A stretch of DNA of 10,556 bases from Armatimonadota bacterium (GTDB taxonomy: Bacteria > Armatimonadota > UBA5829): positions 1 through 10,556 of the forward strand of contig JAMCYN010000104.1 of NCBI GenBank assembly GCA_023474015.1, read 5' to 3'. Shown here piece by piece: positions 276 through 10,134 of the stretch (its first letter is position 1; every line of letters begins with the position of its first letter). Under the pieces are notes generated by a model. That model was not told the DNA's origin, ran no database searches, and saw nothing but the letters and a program-made list of their open reading frames with translations. The position numbers and the translations under genes are program-made.

Positions 276-3200
276 TTAGAACCTCGTCAGAACGAACACC
301 GAGCTCAGCACGTCGGATACCACCTTGGTGACGTTACCAACCCTCTCCCATTTCTTAGCGATATCGATCAGACCCGTGGTGGGAACCACGATAATGTCGC
401 CGGGCAGGACACTTTTCACGCGCTTCTGCGGAAGAGCATCGCCATTGGTCCTCACGACGACCACATCGCCGCGCGATGCTTCCTGCGAGTACCCGCCGGA
501 CCGTTCGATGTAGTATTGGGCGCTCTTGCCAGGACCGGCGGCGAATGAGTGCGGATGCAGTACGGCTCCGATGACGGTCACCACATTCACCAGTTTTGGC
601 ACAAGTATCCGGTCGCCATCGCGAAGGGCCAAGTTGTCGGGCGCGTCGGGGTCCTTGAGAGCATTTCCAAGGTTCACGGATATCCTTGAGGAGTCTTTGG
701 CCAACTGCTCAACTCCGCGCTCTATTTTAAGGTTCAACTTAGAATAAGGCGAGTCCTGGATCTCGTCATCAGGAAGTGGAGCGCCCATGGCGCTGATCTG
801 CTGCTCTCTCTGCTTTTCCCGCTCTATCCGGCGGAGTATCTCTTCCGCGGTCTGGGCGGACTTTTGGTCGGCAAACTGCGCATTTCCCCCATCTTCGGTA
901 GCCCCGGAGGTTTTCATCGTCCCCGCCGTCTCTTCGGTCCCCTGTGTCTCGCCTTCCTTTGCGTTATTGCTGGTTGTTCCGGCACTAGTCGTGACGGACT
1001 TGGTTCCGTTGGTCGCATCCGATTCAGTCACCTCGACAACCTGCGTGGGCTTAGAAAGCTCAGCGGCGGACTTGCTTCCGGACTGCATGAAAATAGATGG
1101 CAGTGTCACACCCGACTTCGCAAGTTGAGTCAGAAACTGCTTGTCCGCAAAGATACGTGACTTGGCAAGTATGGCGTCGGAGTCCAGTTCCTGCTGCGGC
1201 TTCTCGACACTGCTCCTGCGCCTTAGGAATATCAGCCCGTTGGTGTCGGCCACGCCGGTAAGCCCGCCTGCCCGCGCGATCACATCGGAAAGCTTCTCGT
1301 CCTGGTTCGTCAGTACATACGGCCCCGGATGCTCAACCTCTCCTGTCAGATAAACCACCTCCGGGGCGCGCAGTCGCGGGTTGATTGCCGTGACCGTGAC
1401 GACATCACTGTCCTGCAACACAGGGTCATTCTCAGGGGATTTGTCAAGCTCGGCAAGGTTGATGTGGCTGATCGCGCTGCAGCCGGATCCGACGCAGTGC
1501 GCTACTTCAGCGTTACCGCTAGCCTCGGGCAGAAGCCCACCAGCGGCGAAGAGCAGATCGCTAATGCGCATGCCCTCGGACCGAACGAATGTGCCGGGCC
1601 TCTGTACTGCGCCCTCGATTCGCACATTCCGATCTCGCCAATTCACTTCATCGCAAGTGTAAACCGTAATTTGATCGCGGTCGTGCAGCTCGACATTAGC
1701 GGATGGATCACCGTTAAGAGCGGATTGCAGGTCGACCCTGACAAGCGTGGTCTTCTCGTTGTCCCCAAGACGCAATAAGTCCGCGCGCTCGAGGTAGGCC
1801 TGCGGCAGCACTCCACCCGCCGCCGCCACTGCGTCGCTGACGCGCATATGCCCGGCTCTCTTGTAGACCCCAGGCCGCACCAGTGCGCCGCTGACGGTCA
1901 CGAGCTTCGGCCTGAACACGACCTGCTCAGGCTCATAGACGAAGACACGATCAAGCTTGGTAAGTTTGATATTACTCGTGGTATCGCCCTGCAAGGCCTT
2001 GTCGAGGTTGATAGAGATGATCTCGGTTCCTTTCATAGGATCGAGCCGAAGGATATCGGCGCGGCCTCCGTAGATCTCCTTACCCACTGCAAACCCCTGC
2101 GCCATCTTCACCAAATCCGTGACCTTCAGGCCATCCTGGAAGCCATACAGACCGGGAGCCTTGACCGGGCCCTCGATACTGACCTGATTCGTCCTGTCGG
2201 GACGGACGCTGATGACCGTTATTTGGTCTCCAGGCTTGAGAGGGAAACCGGACTTGCCGTCGCCGCCATTTATAGGCTCACTCAGAAGCACTTTATACTG
2301 GTTGTCCTCAATGCGCTCGACCTGCACTGCCTGGAGATAACCGCTCGGTTTGGATTGACCGGCCACATTCAATATCGCGCCCAGATTGGTCGGGAAGGTC
2401 GGCTCGTAGCGTCCCGGCCTTACGACCTCGCCGCCCACCGTCACCGTGGGACCCACCGACGGTACGAATATCAGGTCGCCGTCCTGCAGTGGGAGGTCCT
2501 GCTTTTTGTTACCGCGCAGAAGGAAATCATAAAGGTCGATGGTGCGCTTGGGCTCAGCATCTCGGGCAAGCTCTATATGTCGGAATGTGCCGGACTTGGT
2601 CGGCCCACCCGCCTGCACGAGCGCATCGAGTACCGTCGCAGTGCCGCGCAGTATGTATGTTCCAGGTCTTGCCACATCGCCGGAAACCTGCACCTGGATG
2701 GTGGACATTGCCGCCACCGTTACCTGCGCGTGGAGCTGCTTGAACTTGGAGCTGATTTTCTGTTCCAGAATGTTCTCGATCTGAGAGGTCGTCTTTCCGC
2801 CCGCCGAAATGCGACCCGCGCCAGGAACCAATATCGTGCCGGTATTGTCCACAATTAGCACATACTCATCCTGTGCGCCAAGGTTGCTAAGCACTATGAC
2901 ACGCACCTTGTCGCCCGAGCGGACTTTGTAGTTCTGTGGAGCCGGGCGAAGATCGGAGTCAGCGACCGGCGGCGCGCTCTTGAAAAAATCCATGCCGAAC
3001 ACGTTGCGTCCATTGTCCCAGCGCTGGTTCATAATCTCCATCGCTATCCGAAGTTGGAACAAGCGGTCCTGCAGGTCCTGCCACTGGATCTGCGCCAGGG
3101 TCGAGGTGTCCAGCGAAGAAACGCGCTTCAGCTCGTCATCGGTGAGCGTTAACTGGCGATTGATCTGATCCAACTCGTCCTGAGGAGGGGGGGCGGTCTC

Positions 3201-3494
3201 TCGGCGTATTGCCTTGATGCGCTTATCTAAGTTGATGATGACCTGGTTTACATTGATCAGACGCCGTTGGAACTCTTCCTCCAGCTTCATCTGCTGCTCC
3301 GCCTGCGTGGGCTCCGGAGCAGCTCCATTGACTTCTTTGCTATCTCGGGAGCGAGCCTGCTGATCGGACTGCTTATGTTCCACCCGCGCGGCGGCGGGTT
3401 CATCCTTTTGCCAGCCTGGTGTGTCCGCTGCCGTGGCAGCCGTGGAAAGGTTAACAAGTAGGGCGAGTGGAATGAGAATCGTGCTGAGTTTCAT
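276..3494 (-). CDS. Large Wza-like polysaccharide export protein with seven SLBB repeats
   Basis: This 1072-residue protein belongs to the polysaccharide biosynthesis/export family, which builds the periplasmic and outer-membrane channel for exopolysaccharide or capsule. A signal peptide is visible at residues 1-22 (hydrophobic ILIPLALLVNL, then an A-T-A cleavage site). It has no lipobox cysteine, unlike E. coli Wza. Residues 60-170 are charged and helical. The export domain begins near 187 (NYKVRSGDKVRV). Seven SLBB-like repeats follow, each opened by a V-x-G-x-V-x-x-P-G-x-Y type motif, at about 267, 350, 437, 531, 624, 713 and 972. The sixth is split by an insert at about 760-935 containing a Thr/Ser-rich linker (820-870) and a charged helix (880-900), and closes at NLALRDGDRILVP. 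Wza itself is about 380 residues with two SLBB domains, so this protein is much extended. Ligand and polymer are unknown. A perfect sigma-70 promoter lies 75 bases upstream. Confidence 0.92.
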   Translation of the reverse strand: MKLSTILIPLALLVNLSTAATAADTPGWQKDEPAAARVEHKQSDQQARSRDSKEVNGAAPEPTQAEQQMKLEEEFQRRLINVNQVIINLDKRIKAIRRETAPPPQDELDQINRQLTLTDDELKRVSSLDTSTLAQIQWQDLQDRLFQLRIAMEIMNQRWDNGRNVFGMDFFKSAPPVADSDLRPAPQNYKVRSGDKVRVIVLSNLGAQDEYVLIVDNTGTILVPGAGRISAGGKTTSQIENILEQKISSKFKQLHAQVTVAAMSTIQVQVSGDVARPGTYILRGTATVLDALVQAGGPTKSGTFRHIELARDAEPKRTIDLYDFLLRGNKKQDLPLQDGDLIFVPSVGPTVTVGGEVVRPGRYEPTFPTNLGAILNVAGQSKPSGYLQAVQVERIEDNQYKVLLSEPINGGDGKSGFPLKPGDQITVISVRPDRTNQVSIEGPVKAPGLYGFQDGLKVTDLVKMAQGFAVGKEIYGGRADILRLDPMKGTEIISINLDKALQGDTTSNIKLTKLDRVFVYEPEQVVFRPKLVTVSGALVRPGVYKRAGHMRVSDAVAAAGGVLPQAYLERADLLRLGDNEKTTLVRVDLQSALNGDPSANVELHDRDQITVYTCDEVNWRDRNVRIEGAVQRPGTFVRSEGMRISDLLFAAGGLLPEASGNAEVAHCVGSGCSAISHINLAELDKSPENDPVLQDSDVVTVTAINPRLRAPEVVYLTGEVEHPGPYVLTNQDEKLSDVIARAGGLTGVADTNGLIFLRRRSSVEKPQQELDSDAILAKSRIFADKQFLTQLAKSGVTLPSIFMQSGSKSAAELSKPTQVVEVTESDATNGTKSVTTSAGTTSNNAKEGETQGTEETAGTMKTSGATEDGGNAQFADQKSAQTAEEILRRIEREKQREQQISAMGAPLPDDEIQDSPYSKLNLKIERGVEQLAKDSSRISVNLGNALKDPDAPDNLALRDGDRILVPKLVNVVTVIGAVLHPHSFAAGPGKSAQYYIERSGGYSQEASRGDVVVVRTNGDALPQKRVKSVLPGDIIVVPTTGLIDIAKKWERVGNVTKVVSDVLSSVFVLTRF

Positions 3495-7174: not shown

Positions 7175-8230
7175 TTACGCCACGCTGAGCGCGGTAAGCA
7201 GGTCTCCGAGGTTGCGGGCCATGAATTCGACCGCCCCGACTGCGCGGGGGTAGTCCATGCGGGTTGGACCGATTACACCTATGGTACCGGCGATGCGGCC
7301 GTAGATGCGATAGGGCGCGGCGACGAAGCTGCAGTCACGCATTTCACCCAGGGGGTTCTCCGAGCCAATAATGACCGTGGTGCCGGGGCCCAGGTAGACC
7401 GTGGAGAAGAGCTTGTAGAGGGCCTTGCGCTGCTCCAAAACCGACAGCACCGCCTCCAGCCGCTCGATGTCCTTGAACTCCGGCTGATGCATTATGTAGC
7501 TTGCGCCTTCAAGGTGCACGTCGCCTTCGTCGGTCGATTCCACCTCGCGCCTGATGAATTGCATCACCTTGCCCAGCATGTCCTTCATATCGACGGCGTC
7601 CGGCGGCAGGTCCTCCATCGCGCCGGCGCTTATGGATTCCAGTGTTCGCCCACCAAGCCTGCGCGTGAGGAAGTTGGTTGCGCGCACGGGGTCGGGCTGG
7701 ACAGTGGCCGAATCGAACTCCAGAAGCTCATGAATGACCCTGCCATTGCTCAAAACCAATACGGCCAGCAGCTTGCTGCGACCAACGTTCGCCACGCTGA
7801 TGTGGCTGACAACGGCGTCCTTGGCCATTGGGCTGGTCGCCATGGAGGTATAATGCGCCAGGTCCGCAAGAATGCGGCAGGTCTGCTCGATGATGATGTC
7901 TACCTCTGTCCGATGCGGTATAAGCCTGTCCCTCGCGCCGGCGGCCTCGATGCTATCGAGATCGACGGCTTCCATCAGCCGGTCCACGTAAAATCTGTAA
8001 CCGAGGTCCGAGGGTATGCGCCCGGCGGACGTGTGAGGTTGATGCAGGTAGCCCAATTCGGCGAGTTCGGCGAGTTCGTTGCGGATGGTGGCGGACTTGA
8101 CCCCAAAGTGATAACGGGTCATAAGGGTATGCGAGCCGACGGGCTCGACGGTGCGCACGTAGTCGGTCACAACCGCCTTGAGGATGACCTGCTTGCGGGA
8201 GTCAAGCGGGGTGATAGGAATACCTCTCAT
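7175..8230 (-). CDS. hrcA: Heat-inducible transcription repressor HrcA
   Basis: HrcA binds CIRCE operators and represses chaperone genes until GroEL is titrated by unfolded protein. The winged-helix start LDSRKQVILKAVVTDYVRT, the PVGSHTL and SATIRNELAELAELGYL helices and the HTSAGRIPSDLGYRFYVD wing are all present, as is the C-terminal IGSENPLGEMRDCSFVAAPY and GTIGVIGPTRMDYPRAV core. Length (351 residues) is normal. I chose the ATG at 8230. An in-frame TTG at 8266 would add 12 residues and has a GAGG site, but that site sits at the predicted transcript tip (about 8278), which makes it a poor start. The gene has its own promoter, no grpE, dnaK or dnaJ follows, and no good CIRCE lies upstream, so autoregulation by the classical site is not seen. 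Confidence 0.95.
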   Translation of the reverse strand: MRGIPITPLDSRKQVILKAVVTDYVRTVEPVGSHTLMTRYHFGVKSATIRNELAELAELGYLHQPHTSAGRIPSDLGYRFYVDRLMEAVDLDSIEAAGARDRLIPHRTEVDIIIEQTCRILADLAHYTSMATSPMAKDAVVSHISVANVGRSKLLAVLVLSNGRVIHELLEFDSATVQPDPVRATNFLTRRLGGRTLESISAGAMEDLPPDAVDMKDMLGKVMQFIRREVESTDEGDVHLEGASYIMHQPEFKDIERLEAVLSVLEQRKALYKLFSTVYLGPGTTVIIGSENPLGEMRDCSFVAAPYRIYGRIAGTIGVIGPTRMDYPRAVGAVEFMARNLGDLLTALSVA

Positions 8231-8284
8231 AATGCTACTCGCCTGCGCACGGGCCGGTTGCGGCAAAAATGCGCCTCTAAATGG

Positions 8285-8314
8285 ATATTAGCATTGGGAG
8301 AGGCTTCATGTCAA
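8285..8314 (-). promoter_or_regulatory. Sigma-70 promoter of hrcA, with extended -10
   Basis: On the minus strand TTGACA (8314-8309) is followed by 18 bases and TAATAT (8290-8285), with TGC directly before the -10 as an extended element. The -35 overlaps the TGA stop codon of the upstream presenilin-like gene. Transcription would begin near 8278, leaving a leader of about 48 bases to the ATG at 8230. Confidence 0.65.
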
Positions 8315-9324
8315 GTTTGCGCGGGGGATTCGGAGTGGCGCTGTTGGAGAGTACGGCCTGTATGCCCCACGTTCTTCTCCACGCGCGCCTTCAACACCGA
8401 CCATGCCGCCGTCATGAGGCACAATAGCACAATCCCCACGACGAGCATCGAAATCTTCTCCTGCCGGGTCAGATTGAACTCCCGCCGGTTCGCCGACACA
8501 ACGGCGATAGCAAGCACGATCAGCGCGGGCAGAGAGCTGAGCAGGCCGAACATCACGGCGAGCATTCCAATGGTCATTGCGCAGAAGACGTACACATAGT
8601 TGCGCGCGCCGTTCATCTTATGTTGATGAACCGCCGCGAATACCAGCGCCATGAACAGGAAATCACCCGGCCCGACCATCGTGACCGGCATGAATGTCCC
8701 AGTTCCGACCTGCGGAATCGGCGCGCTCACGGCCGGGGCGATGCTCGGAGCGTGCTTGAGCATGGTCGCGACGGGGCCGAAGAACACGGTCCAGAAGTCG
8801 ATGCAGGCGGCGATCATGACCACGGGCAGGAGGAGGTTCTTGTCCTTCACCCGCACGGCCACCAGGCAGCCGATGCTCGCGGCGGCCAGCACCTTCAGGA
8901 CGTTCATTGGCATCGCCAGCGGCCCGTAGTAGTTGGCCATGATGAACAGGTGCTCTTTGAGATTCGGATAGTGGTGGAGCTTAGCAGGCAGCTTGGCATG
9001 GATTATCACGATCCCGAGCATCGCCGCTATCAGCCCGAGGCACGCGACCAGCGCGAGTAGCCCCTGCCAGAAGTTCAACTTGAGCTTGGCGAAGAAGTAT
9101 ACGAGGGCTATCTGAATCGCCATGAAAGCGACCGTGGGCGCGGCGACTATCACGACGGCTCCGAGGTTTAGAATGAACGCGGCGGGACCTTTGATGAACA
9201 GGACCCCGGTGTCGATGGTGTTGACAATGTGAGGCAGGAAGGTAGCCCTAGGTACCAGGAGCCACAAGGCGAAATACGCAATTATCGATAGCAACAGACC
9301 CGACGCCGGTGACTTCCTGAACAA
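8311..9324 (-). CDS. Presenilin/signal-peptide-peptidase-like intramembrane aspartyl protease
   Basis: The 337-residue protein has about nine or ten hydrophobic helices. It shows, in the right order and within helices, the three signatures of GxGD-type intramembrane proteases: an aspartate in CIDFWTVFFG (D176), where signal peptide peptidases have YDxFWVFG; GPGD at 218-221 (D221); and PAL at 266-268. The stretch GPGDFLFMALVF also resembles the GLGD helix of that family. Such enzymes cleave transmembrane helices of membrane proteins or leftover signal peptides. The tyrosine of YD is replaced by isoleucine and an extra helix (291-311) follows PAL, both unlike the canonical enzymes. The start is a TTG with a strong AAGGAG site seven bases upstream. 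It diverges from the ANTAR regulator gene. The assignment rests on motifs only; a non-proteolytic membrane protein remains possible. Confidence 0.72.
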   Translation of the reverse strand: MFRKSPASGLLLSIIAYFALWLLVPRATFLPHIVNTIDTGVLFIKGPAAFILNLGAVVIVAAPTVAFMAIQIALVYFFAKLKLNFWQGLLALVACLGLIAAMLGIVIIHAKLPAKLHHYPNLKEHLFIMANYYGPLAMPMNVLKVLAAASIGCLVAVRVKDKNLLLPVVMIAACIDFWTVFFGPVATMLKHAPSIAPAVSAPIPQVGTGTFMPVTMVGPGDFLFMALVFAAVHQHKMNGARNYVYVFCAMTIGMLAVMFGLLSSLPALIVLAIAVVSANRREFNLTRQEKISMLVVGIVLLCLMTAAWSVLKARVEKNVGHTGRTLQQRHSESPAQT

Positions 9325-9360: not shown

Positions 9361-9505
9361 CTTCGACCTCTTGACTTTGAGGTTGTATCGGGAAACCCTT
9401 TTCCCGATACCCATGCGTCAAGCGTAGGCATTTCGGGATAGGGGTATCCCGAAACAACTCGTTTCCGTGTATTTGACATACACCCCTTCGACCTCTTGAC
9501 TTTGA
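9361..9505. repeat. 20-bp direct repeats flanking a block of three hairpins
   Basis: CTTCGACCTCTTGACTTTGA occurs perfectly at 9361-9380 and again at 9486-9505. The 105 bases between hold three inverted repeats: GTATCGGGAAA/TTTCCCGATAC with a 4-base loop (9385-9410), TTTCGGGATA/TATCCCGAAA with a GGGG loop (9431-9454) and GTGTAT/ATACAC with a 5-base gap (9467-9483). Neither large hairpin is followed by a T-run in either direction, so they do not look like terminators. Left of the block, TTAGAAG, TTAGAGG and TTAGACT form a short 7-base tandem array at 9342-9362. The arrangement could be an inserted element with duplicated ends, or a structured leader for the minus-strand gene. Confidence 0.75.
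9467..9483. promoter_or_regulatory. Operator-like palindrome GTGTAT-N5-ATACAC
   Basis: A perfect 6-base inverted repeat separated by TTGAC lies about 20 bases upstream of the -35 of the response-regulator promoter and inside the predicted leader of the divergent gene. Its 17-base size suits a dimeric repressor or activator. No regulator is identified. Confidence 0.4.
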
Positions 9506-9530
9506 CAATGATTATACCACACGCTAGAAT
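9502..9530 (+). promoter_or_regulatory. Sigma-70 promoter of the ANTAR response regulator
   Basis: TTGACA (9502-9507), 17 bases, TAGAAT (9525-9530). The -35 is perfect and the -10 matches 5 of 6. Transcription would begin near 9537, about 22 bases before the ATG. The first four bases of the -35 come from the end of the second direct-repeat copy. Confidence 0.75.
9511..9519 (-). promoter_or_regulatory. Extended -10 for the presenilin-like gene, overlapping the divergent promoter
   Basis: On the minus strand TGG-TATAAT (9519-9511) is a perfect extended -10. No good -35 lies 16-18 bases upstream. It sits in the spacer of the opposing plus-strand promoter, so the two could not be occupied at once. 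A start near 9504 would give a leader of about 180 bases that includes all three hairpins. Confidence 0.5.
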
Positions 9531-9558: not shown

Positions 9559-10134
9559 ATGAGCCAGATACGAGTAGTCATAGCCGACGATGAGTCGATA
9601 ATACGAATGGATTTGAAAGCCCTCCTCGAAGAGATGGGGCATGTTATCGTGGGAGAGGCCGCCGACGGCCAGAAGGCGCTGGAATTGACGCGCTCCTTGA
9701 AGCCGGATGTGGTGATTATGGATATCAAGATGCCCGTGATGGACGGCCTCGACGCCGCGAAGATCATTAGCGAGGAGAAGATCGCCCCCGTGGTCTTGCT
9801 CACGGCCTACAGCCAGAAGGACCTCATCGAGCGCGCGAAGGAAGCCGGAGTCTACGCCTACCTGGTCAAGCCGTTCCAGGAATCCGACCTCCTGCCCGCC
9901 ATCGAGATAGCGATAGCCCGATATCTCGAGCAGCAAGACCTTGAGAGCACCCTCGGCGACCTCGAACAGAAACTGGAAACCCGAAAGATCGTGGACCGCG
10001 CCAAGGGCATACTTATGGACAAGTATAAGATGGGCGAGTCCGACGCCTTCCGCCGCATCCAACAGCAGAGTATGAACCAGCGCCGCTCGATGAAAGAGAT
10101 CGCCGAAGCTATTATCATCGCGCACGAAATATAG
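9559..10134 (+). CDS. ANTAR-domain response regulator (putative RNA-binding antiterminator)
   Basis: The 191-residue protein has an N-terminal receiver domain (about 4-118) with acidic D10/D11, phosphoacceptor D55 in VVIMDIKMP, T82 and K104 in VKPF, all intact. A short coiled linker (QDLESTLGDLEQKLETR) leads to an ANTAR domain (about 136-190) with the typical IVDRAKGILMDKYKMGESDAFRRIQQQSMNQRRSMKEIAEAII pattern in segments. Family members (AmiR, NasT, EutV, Rv1626) dimerise on phosphorylation and usually bind paired hairpins in leader RNA to prevent termination. I chose the ATG at 9559, preceded by AGGAG with seven bases of spacing; an upstream in-frame ATG at 9496 lies in the promoter. No histidine kinase is visible in the window, so the partner must be elsewhere. 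Confidence 0.93.
   Translation: MSQIRVVIADDESIIRMDLKALLEEMGHVIVGEAADGQKALELTRSLKPDVVIMDIKMPVMDGLDAAKIISEEKIAPVVLLTAYSQKDLIERAKEAGVYAYLVKPFQESDLLPAIEIAIARYLEQQDLESTLGDLEQKLETRKIVDRAKGILMDKYKMGESDAFRRIQQQSMNQRRSMKEIAEAIIIAHEI

Follow-up and report, generated by a model that had tools for sequence, protein, structure and literature searches.

A presenilin-like family of putative di-aspartyl intramembrane proteases in the bacterial phylum Armatimonadota

Presenilin-type proteases have been studied mainly in eukaryotes and archaea, and presenilin is linked to Alzheimer's disease. The literature, with subscription papers and preprints largely uncovered, yielded no report of a presenilin or an intramembrane protease family in Armatimonadota, and a 'bacterial presenilin homologue' appeared only as a passing mention. 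Signal peptide peptidase (SPP) apparently has a topology opposite to that of presenilin and cleaves type II proteins, according to the accessible part of PMC2947513. Here, we analyzed a 10,556-nt stretch of Armatimonadota DNA (contig JAMCYN010000104.1; the window), in which positions 8311 to 9324 of the minus strand encode a presenilin/SPP-like polytopic membrane protein of 337 amino acids. We conclude that the product of this gene is very probably a bacterial di-aspartyl protease that acts within the membrane, of presenilin/SPP type, and that it belongs to a family of its own.

The span of the open reading frame (ORF) is exactly that given by an earlier annotation of the window (the sequence-only reading), which had left the strand unstated. 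The ORF starts with TTG at 9324, and AAGGAG is located 7 nt 5' of this codon, as read from the sequence. The start position is the same in close relatives (M-F-K-K-S-P, M-S-K-K-P-P). The three active-site motifs named in the sequence-only reading, D176 in CIDFWTVFFG, GPGD at residues 218–221 and PAL at residues 266–268, were all found, in that order. D176 (codon at 8797–8799, minus strand), the candidate for the first catalytic aspartate, lies in the equivalent of transmembrane helix 6 (TM6; helix 162–181 of the structure model described below). D221, the candidate for the second, closes the GPGD motif (8662–8673, minus strand) in the TM7 equivalent (model helix 219–234), and PAL (8521–8529, minus strand) is at the start of the TM9 equivalent.

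Among 5.8 billion proteins searched, 115 were homologous at E ≤ 0.01, the window protein itself included, and the organism names among the homologues listed were only Armatimonadota/Armatimonadetes or plain 'bacterium'. When 86 of the 115 homologues were aligned (A1), D176, G218, G220, D221, and P266 were invariant throughout, and A267 and L268 were conserved in at least 90%. The A1 profile matched 257 of 291 whole genomes of the phylum at E ≤ 1e-3, the weakest matching genome giving 5.6e-11. The 291 genomes are those of the phylum of one relative, G001, and this phylum is taken as Armatimonadota because the set also contains genomes labelled Armatimonadetes or Armatimonadota (e.g. G003, G004, and G010). 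From the 34 negative genomes, 20 were searched again with a wider profile (A3) and 14 were left out; 10 of the 20 were recovered, which places the family in at least 267 of the 291 genomes, and 6 of the 10 that were still negative have a size of 2.6 Mb or less. The family is near-universal in the genomes examined of this little-studied bacterial phylum. No relatives were found in plasmids or viral contigs searched with SPP.

Conservation across the phylum was assessed with 72 members from 71 loci, namely 60 matches fetched with their flanks, ten genome contigs (L001–L010), and the window; the 60 fetched regions were drawn from the best-scoring profile matches and are not a random sample. D176, D221, G218, F224, G152, P167, and E289 were invariant across the 72 members at a mean column identity of 16%, and the PAL residues were conserved in 69 (P266), 56 (A267), and 67 (L268) of them. 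In 24 loci from genomes with weak or missed matches, D176 was present in 18 of 18 and D221 in 20 of 20 in-frame rows covering the sites. Conservation of the two aspartates among relatives, on which the sequence-only reading had made its proposal depend, extends from the close members (86/86) to the whole phylum (72/72). Chance occurrence of the motifs was ruled out by site conservation in the 86, the 72, and the weak-set members.

L166 and L172, short off-frame overlaps that were left out of the site counts, are one gene shown twice; in this genome, G055, its coding sequence is broken up over two reading frames, possibly by a frameshift or an assembly error. A tandem pair of family members was observed in a single genome (G031; L097, 5647–7530). 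Two matches were also listed in some other genomes, and part of these may be split genes.

The AlphaFold2 (AF2) model of the window protein had a pLDDT of 87.8 and a pTM of 0.84. In a structure search, the top 22 matches were all presenilin-1 (PS1), presenilin-2 (PS2), SPPL2a, or the archaeal presenilin homologue PSH, in agreement with the presenilin/SPP-like fold that had been proposed; in a viral structure library the best match was a Megaviridae signal peptide peptidase at E 0.09. D176 and D221, which the sequence-only reading had placed in hydrophobic helices, lie in predicted neighbouring TM helices, with two short helices between them, and two short strands precede GPGD (201–202 and 216–217). 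Nine TM helices were predicted, with one N-terminal to the aligned part, one after PAL, and fewer between the equivalents of TM1 and TM5. The extra N-terminal helix (residues 6–26; 9247–9309, minus strand), seen in the AF2 model and the hydropathy profile, precedes the TM1 equivalent (47–79) and falls outside the aligned stretch, which begins at model residue 52–63 in the 22 matches. The extra C-terminal helix already noticed in the sequence-only reading was seen in the model after the PAL helix at residues 287–327 (8344–8466, minus strand; AF2/DSSP), with a hydropathy peak at about 296–306, and contains the invariant E289.

To predict the orientation, lysine plus arginine per residue was counted over the 72 members, with loop borders set from the AF2 model. 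From the N-terminus onward the values were 0.168 (a figure that includes upstream ORF extensions), 0.072, 0.168, 0.086, 0.252, 0.068 (TM6–TM7), 0.269, 0.032, and 0.217, and the C-terminal tail (0.128) was the sole departure from positive-inside alternation. With that exception, the alternation implies nine helices with the N-terminus inside and the TM6–TM7 loop outside. This charge bias predicts an SPP-like orientation, in which the N-terminus and the end of TM9 would be cytoplasmic.

For sequence-level comparison, the A3 core (residues 125–305 of the window protein) was aligned by hhalign with four SPPs, SPPL2a, and PS1. The score was 32.0, with an E of 2.4e-4 that applies to that single comparison (4 of the 10 SPP rows of alignment A4 were used). 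In this alignment D176 pairs with YD and GPGD with GLGD, and PAL is off by three columns. None of 180 column shuffles reached 32.0, the maximum being 21.4; the decoy set consisted of shuffles, a single reversal, and a single real family rather than a membrane proteome, and shuffling breaks motifs. The score was 28.0 when PS1 was omitted, with the alignment limited to the GxGD region. The full A3 alignment against 10 SPPs gave E 0.0034, and A1 against one SPP gave E 0.068. The Pfam Presenilin profile was over its cut-off in none of the 291 genomes and gave 24 weak matches in 23 genomes, 8 of which lie inside genes of the family (three confirmed directly, five by same-strand overlap with A1-profile matches). 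Six of the eight start at profile positions 330–334, at or just past GxGD, and two at 179, near the first aspartate. Because one gene is far less than 1/1000 of the two strands of a genome, 8 of 24 is far beyond chance, even when a bias to membrane proteins is allowed for. From the predicted fold together with this weak profile evidence, we infer homology to presenilin/SPP.

Several results weigh against this assignment. The window protein had no Pfam family at E ≤ 1. PF06550, which we take to be the family of the archaeal presenilin homologue PSH/MCMJR1, and PF01080 were each over cut-off in 0 of the 291 Armatimonadota genomes. The other 16 of the 24 weak Presenilin matches fall outside family genes, weak Presenilin matches also occur in 4 of 14 control genomes, and none of the 7 weak PF06550 matches is in the family. 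The YD motif at the first aspartate is absent, residue 175 being Ile in the window protein, as the sequence-only reading had stated, and Tyr in only 1 of the 72 members. That reading had called the protein a presenilin/SPP-like protease; fold, motifs, and conservation bear this out, whereas the Pfam search did not place it in the profiled families. Since the window protein lacks the YD tyrosine and is reached by no curated profile, we do not file the family inside the profiled ones, and we prefer 'presenilin-like sister family' to 'a presenilin' as the safer term. The suggestion of a divergent subfamily was correct yet too modest for a family that spans the phylum.

Other searches gave little. 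NCBIfam gave one chance match to the window protein (E 1.4), and consensus sequences against Pfam gave a single chance match (E 3). In per-member Pfam scans, the matches of the 86 close members looked like chance (among 25 of 30 families listed); among the 72 distant members, PF01080 had the most members matching, yet only 3, with a best E of 0.11, and the lowest E was 2.5e-4 for NnrS in one member (among 25 of 45 families listed). Searching the PDB by sequence, with a single sequence or profiles, returned norcoclaurine synthase, nothing, and an acetylcholine receptor plus a designed repeat, none of them relevant. A profile of 10 vertebrate SPPs found SPPL2a in the PDB at 1.4e-22, PS1 only at E 0.1, and PSH not at all, and a PS1 stretch as query found neither SPPL2a nor PSH at E ≤ 10. 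The absence of relatives in the PDB sequence search is therefore uninformative, since known members miss each other too.

GxGD and another aspartate in a polytopic membrane protein would also suit a relative of the type IV prepilin/preflagellin peptidase (A24), which has two membrane aspartates and GxGD as well. However, hhalign against 28 Armatimonadota A24 sequences scored 16.5 with GxGD not aligned, separate A24 genes were over cut-off in 58 of 61 genomes of the phylum, PAL is conserved in the family, and the window protein had no A24 match in Pfam. Such a kinship is very remote in our estimate, and identity as a prepilin peptidase was ruled out by the score without motif alignment and by the separate A24 genes. 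The 28 A24 sequences scored 13.1 against the SPP/PS1 set. No A24 chain was among the 50 structure matches listed, an absence that excludes nothing.

The GxGD motif varies within the family. Pro occupies the x position in 41 of the 72 members, and V, A, I, L, F, M, or S in the others. The second glycine (G220) is retained in 45 members and replaced by Ala in 27; in the weak-genome set, Ala is found in 18 of the 20 rows that cover this site. At least four changes are needed to account for the distribution of GxGD and GxAD on a maximum-likelihood tree of the 72 members, a quick estimate in which 22 of 69 inner branches were drawn open. In PSH, the Gly-to-Ala change before the catalytic aspartate (G219A) slows proteolysis and does not abolish it (PMC2947513, accessible part), and the equivalent change in presenilin is the clinical G384A mutation (PMC2947513, PMC2405781, likewise in part). 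GxAD alone thus does not mean a dead enzyme, because the same change in PSH only lowers the rate of proteolysis.

GxAD in 27 members nevertheless counts against a protease, as does the mention of non-proteolytic SPP functions in the part of PMC3490818 available. A presenilin fold acting as a chaperone, channel, or scaffold, with the aspartates in another role, would accommodate both. On the other side, G219A leaves PSH active, and both aspartates are kept in 72 of 72 members while most columns drift, which is the pattern of catalysis. We regard the non-proteolytic explanation as improbable. The family offers a natural series with Gly or Ala before the catalytic aspartate, in which the tolerance of the G384A change in presenilin becomes testable, and it supplies small relatives for structural and mechanistic work.

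Our guess at the proteolytic mechanism is as follows. Water would be activated between two membrane-embedded aspartates, D176 close to where the TM6 equivalent ends and D221 where the TM7 equivalent begins, in an active site completed by the PAL turn. As in gamma-secretase, the substrate would be bound in beta-strand form, here by the S-A-P-I-P stretch and the pair of short strands that precede GPGD. Given the SPP-like predicted orientation, likely substrates would be type II (N-in) segments, that is, remnant signal peptides or signal-anchored proteins.

Upstream of the gene, a divergently transcribed response regulator (9559–10134, plus strand) carries Response_reg (PF00072, 5.5e-29) and ANTAR (PF03861, 5.6e-23) domains. 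The neighbour survey covered the fetched stretches, with one member per locus, and regulators were identified with a profile built from the neighbour that recurs, with Pfam domains verified in the window and L054. An ANTAR regulator is divergently adjacent in 23 of the 71 loci, in 22 of them within 600 bp; in the remaining one (L061) it overlaps the listed 5' end. In 20 of the 71 loci a GAF-GAF-HisKA_2 kinase lies just past the regulator, within 1.3 kb (domains verified in L050 and L053, in pieces in L008 and L056). In L003 the regulator and the kinase are both about 3–4 kb distant from the family gene, and in the window the 422 bases past the regulator hold a DUF433 ORF, after which the window ends. 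The association needs at least seven changes on the tree and occurs in several deep lineages of one half; the 29 rows of the other half (21 GxAD) are without it.

The same protease might work within the membrane on behalf of the neighbouring GAF-HisKA_2 kinase/ANTAR regulator pathway, for which, at a guess, it would release or clear a signal. The conserved adjacency, with members down to 24–32% identity to the window protein, points that way, and in another phylum an intramembrane protease, the site-2 protease (S2P) Rip1, has been reported to be functionally coupled to such a kinase and regulator, PdtaS/PdtaR (PMC8131098, accessible part). However, 48 of the 71 loci, among them all 29 rows of the GxAD-rich tree half, lack the adjacency in the sequence fetched, no conserved ANTAR-type hairpins lie between the genes, and the published protease is of another catalytic class, with gene adjacency not stated in the part of that paper at hand. 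The likeness would be a parallel, not evidence for the same circuit, and we consider this role unlikely.

General clearance of remnant signal peptides, by a bacterial SPP that partly replaces SppA, would leave the ANTAR/GAF-kinase neighbourhood as merely inherited gene order. The predicted orientation fits this job, and leuS, too, is a conserved neighbour, which in 17 of the 71 loci directly follows the family gene in the same orientation, no more than 230 bp away and in some cases overlapping it. S49 (SppA-type) was over cut-off in 110 of the 291 genomes and the family in 257, so that at least 147 genomes have the family without S49 over cut-off. Nevertheless, many genomes hold both (e.g. G001, G003, and G004), and genomes may be incomplete. 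S2P (M50) was present in 61 of 61 sampled genomes and could do the clearing; the presenilin-like protein is thus not the sole intramembrane protease. As the main job of the protein, clearance is a plausible prospect that falls somewhat short of even. We favour it as the shared ancestral job of the protease, and regulated proteolysis is possible in lineages with the conserved neighbourhood.

Between the divergent genes, ANTAR-like hairpins were not enriched (3 and 5 on the two strands vs about 1.6 expected per strand), and Rfam gave no match in the window. Two perfect hairpins at 9385–9410 and 9431–9454 have related arms and stems of 10 and 9 bp, and their six-base loops read A..G.. on opposite strands; they could be of the ANTAR type or resemble repetitive extragenic palindromes (REP). 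A scan of relatives found none like them at the corresponding position. This hairpin-forming sequence is flanked by the two copies of a perfect direct repeat of 20 nt, CTTCGACCTCTTGACTTTGA, at 9361–9380 and 9486–9505, and a sigma-70-like promoter match (11/12; 9502–9530, plus strand) runs over the end of the second. The next gene downstream of the presenilin-like one, also on the minus strand (7175–8266), encodes the heat-shock repressor HrcA. The usual partners of hrcA are grpE-dnaK; beyond hrcA here are PIG-L, glycosyltransferase, and GDE_C glycosidase genes instead. A protein of 1072 aa encoded at 276–3494 (minus strand) has a Poly_export domain together with seven SLBB stretches.

The full picture, a near-universal Armatimonadota SPP of presenilin fold, missed by profiles, with repeated change from GxGD to GxAD and acting in part as the membrane arm of a GAF-kinase/ANTAR system, is doubtful when taken as a whole. 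A family found in at least 267 of 291 genomes of one phylum would carry the presenilin-type group into an entire lineage of bacteria. Among known systems, presenilin-1 and presenilin-2 (the gamma-secretase catalytic subunit; PF01080) have the YD tyrosine and a long TM6–TM7 loop, both absent here; in comparison the window protein is predicted to have the opposite orientation, an extra helix at each end, and fewer helices from TM1 to TM5. SPP/SPPL (PF04258) differs by its YD motif, GxGD is often GxAD in the present family, and the comparison with a single SPP (E 0.068) was not significant. Archaeal PSH/MCMJR1 is set apart by its profile, PF06550, which no Armatimonadota genome reached over cut-off. 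Type IV prepilin peptidase/FlaK (A24, PF01478) is likewise di-aspartyl, membrane embedded, and equipped with GxGD, but the present family has PAL, shows no profile similarity to it, and coexists with separate A24 genes in the same phylum. Finally, Rip1 with PdtaS/PdtaR resembles this locus as an intramembrane protease linked to a GAF kinase and an ANTAR regulator (PMC8131098, in the part accessible), whereas the protease here is aspartyl by motif, and its link is one of gene adjacency.
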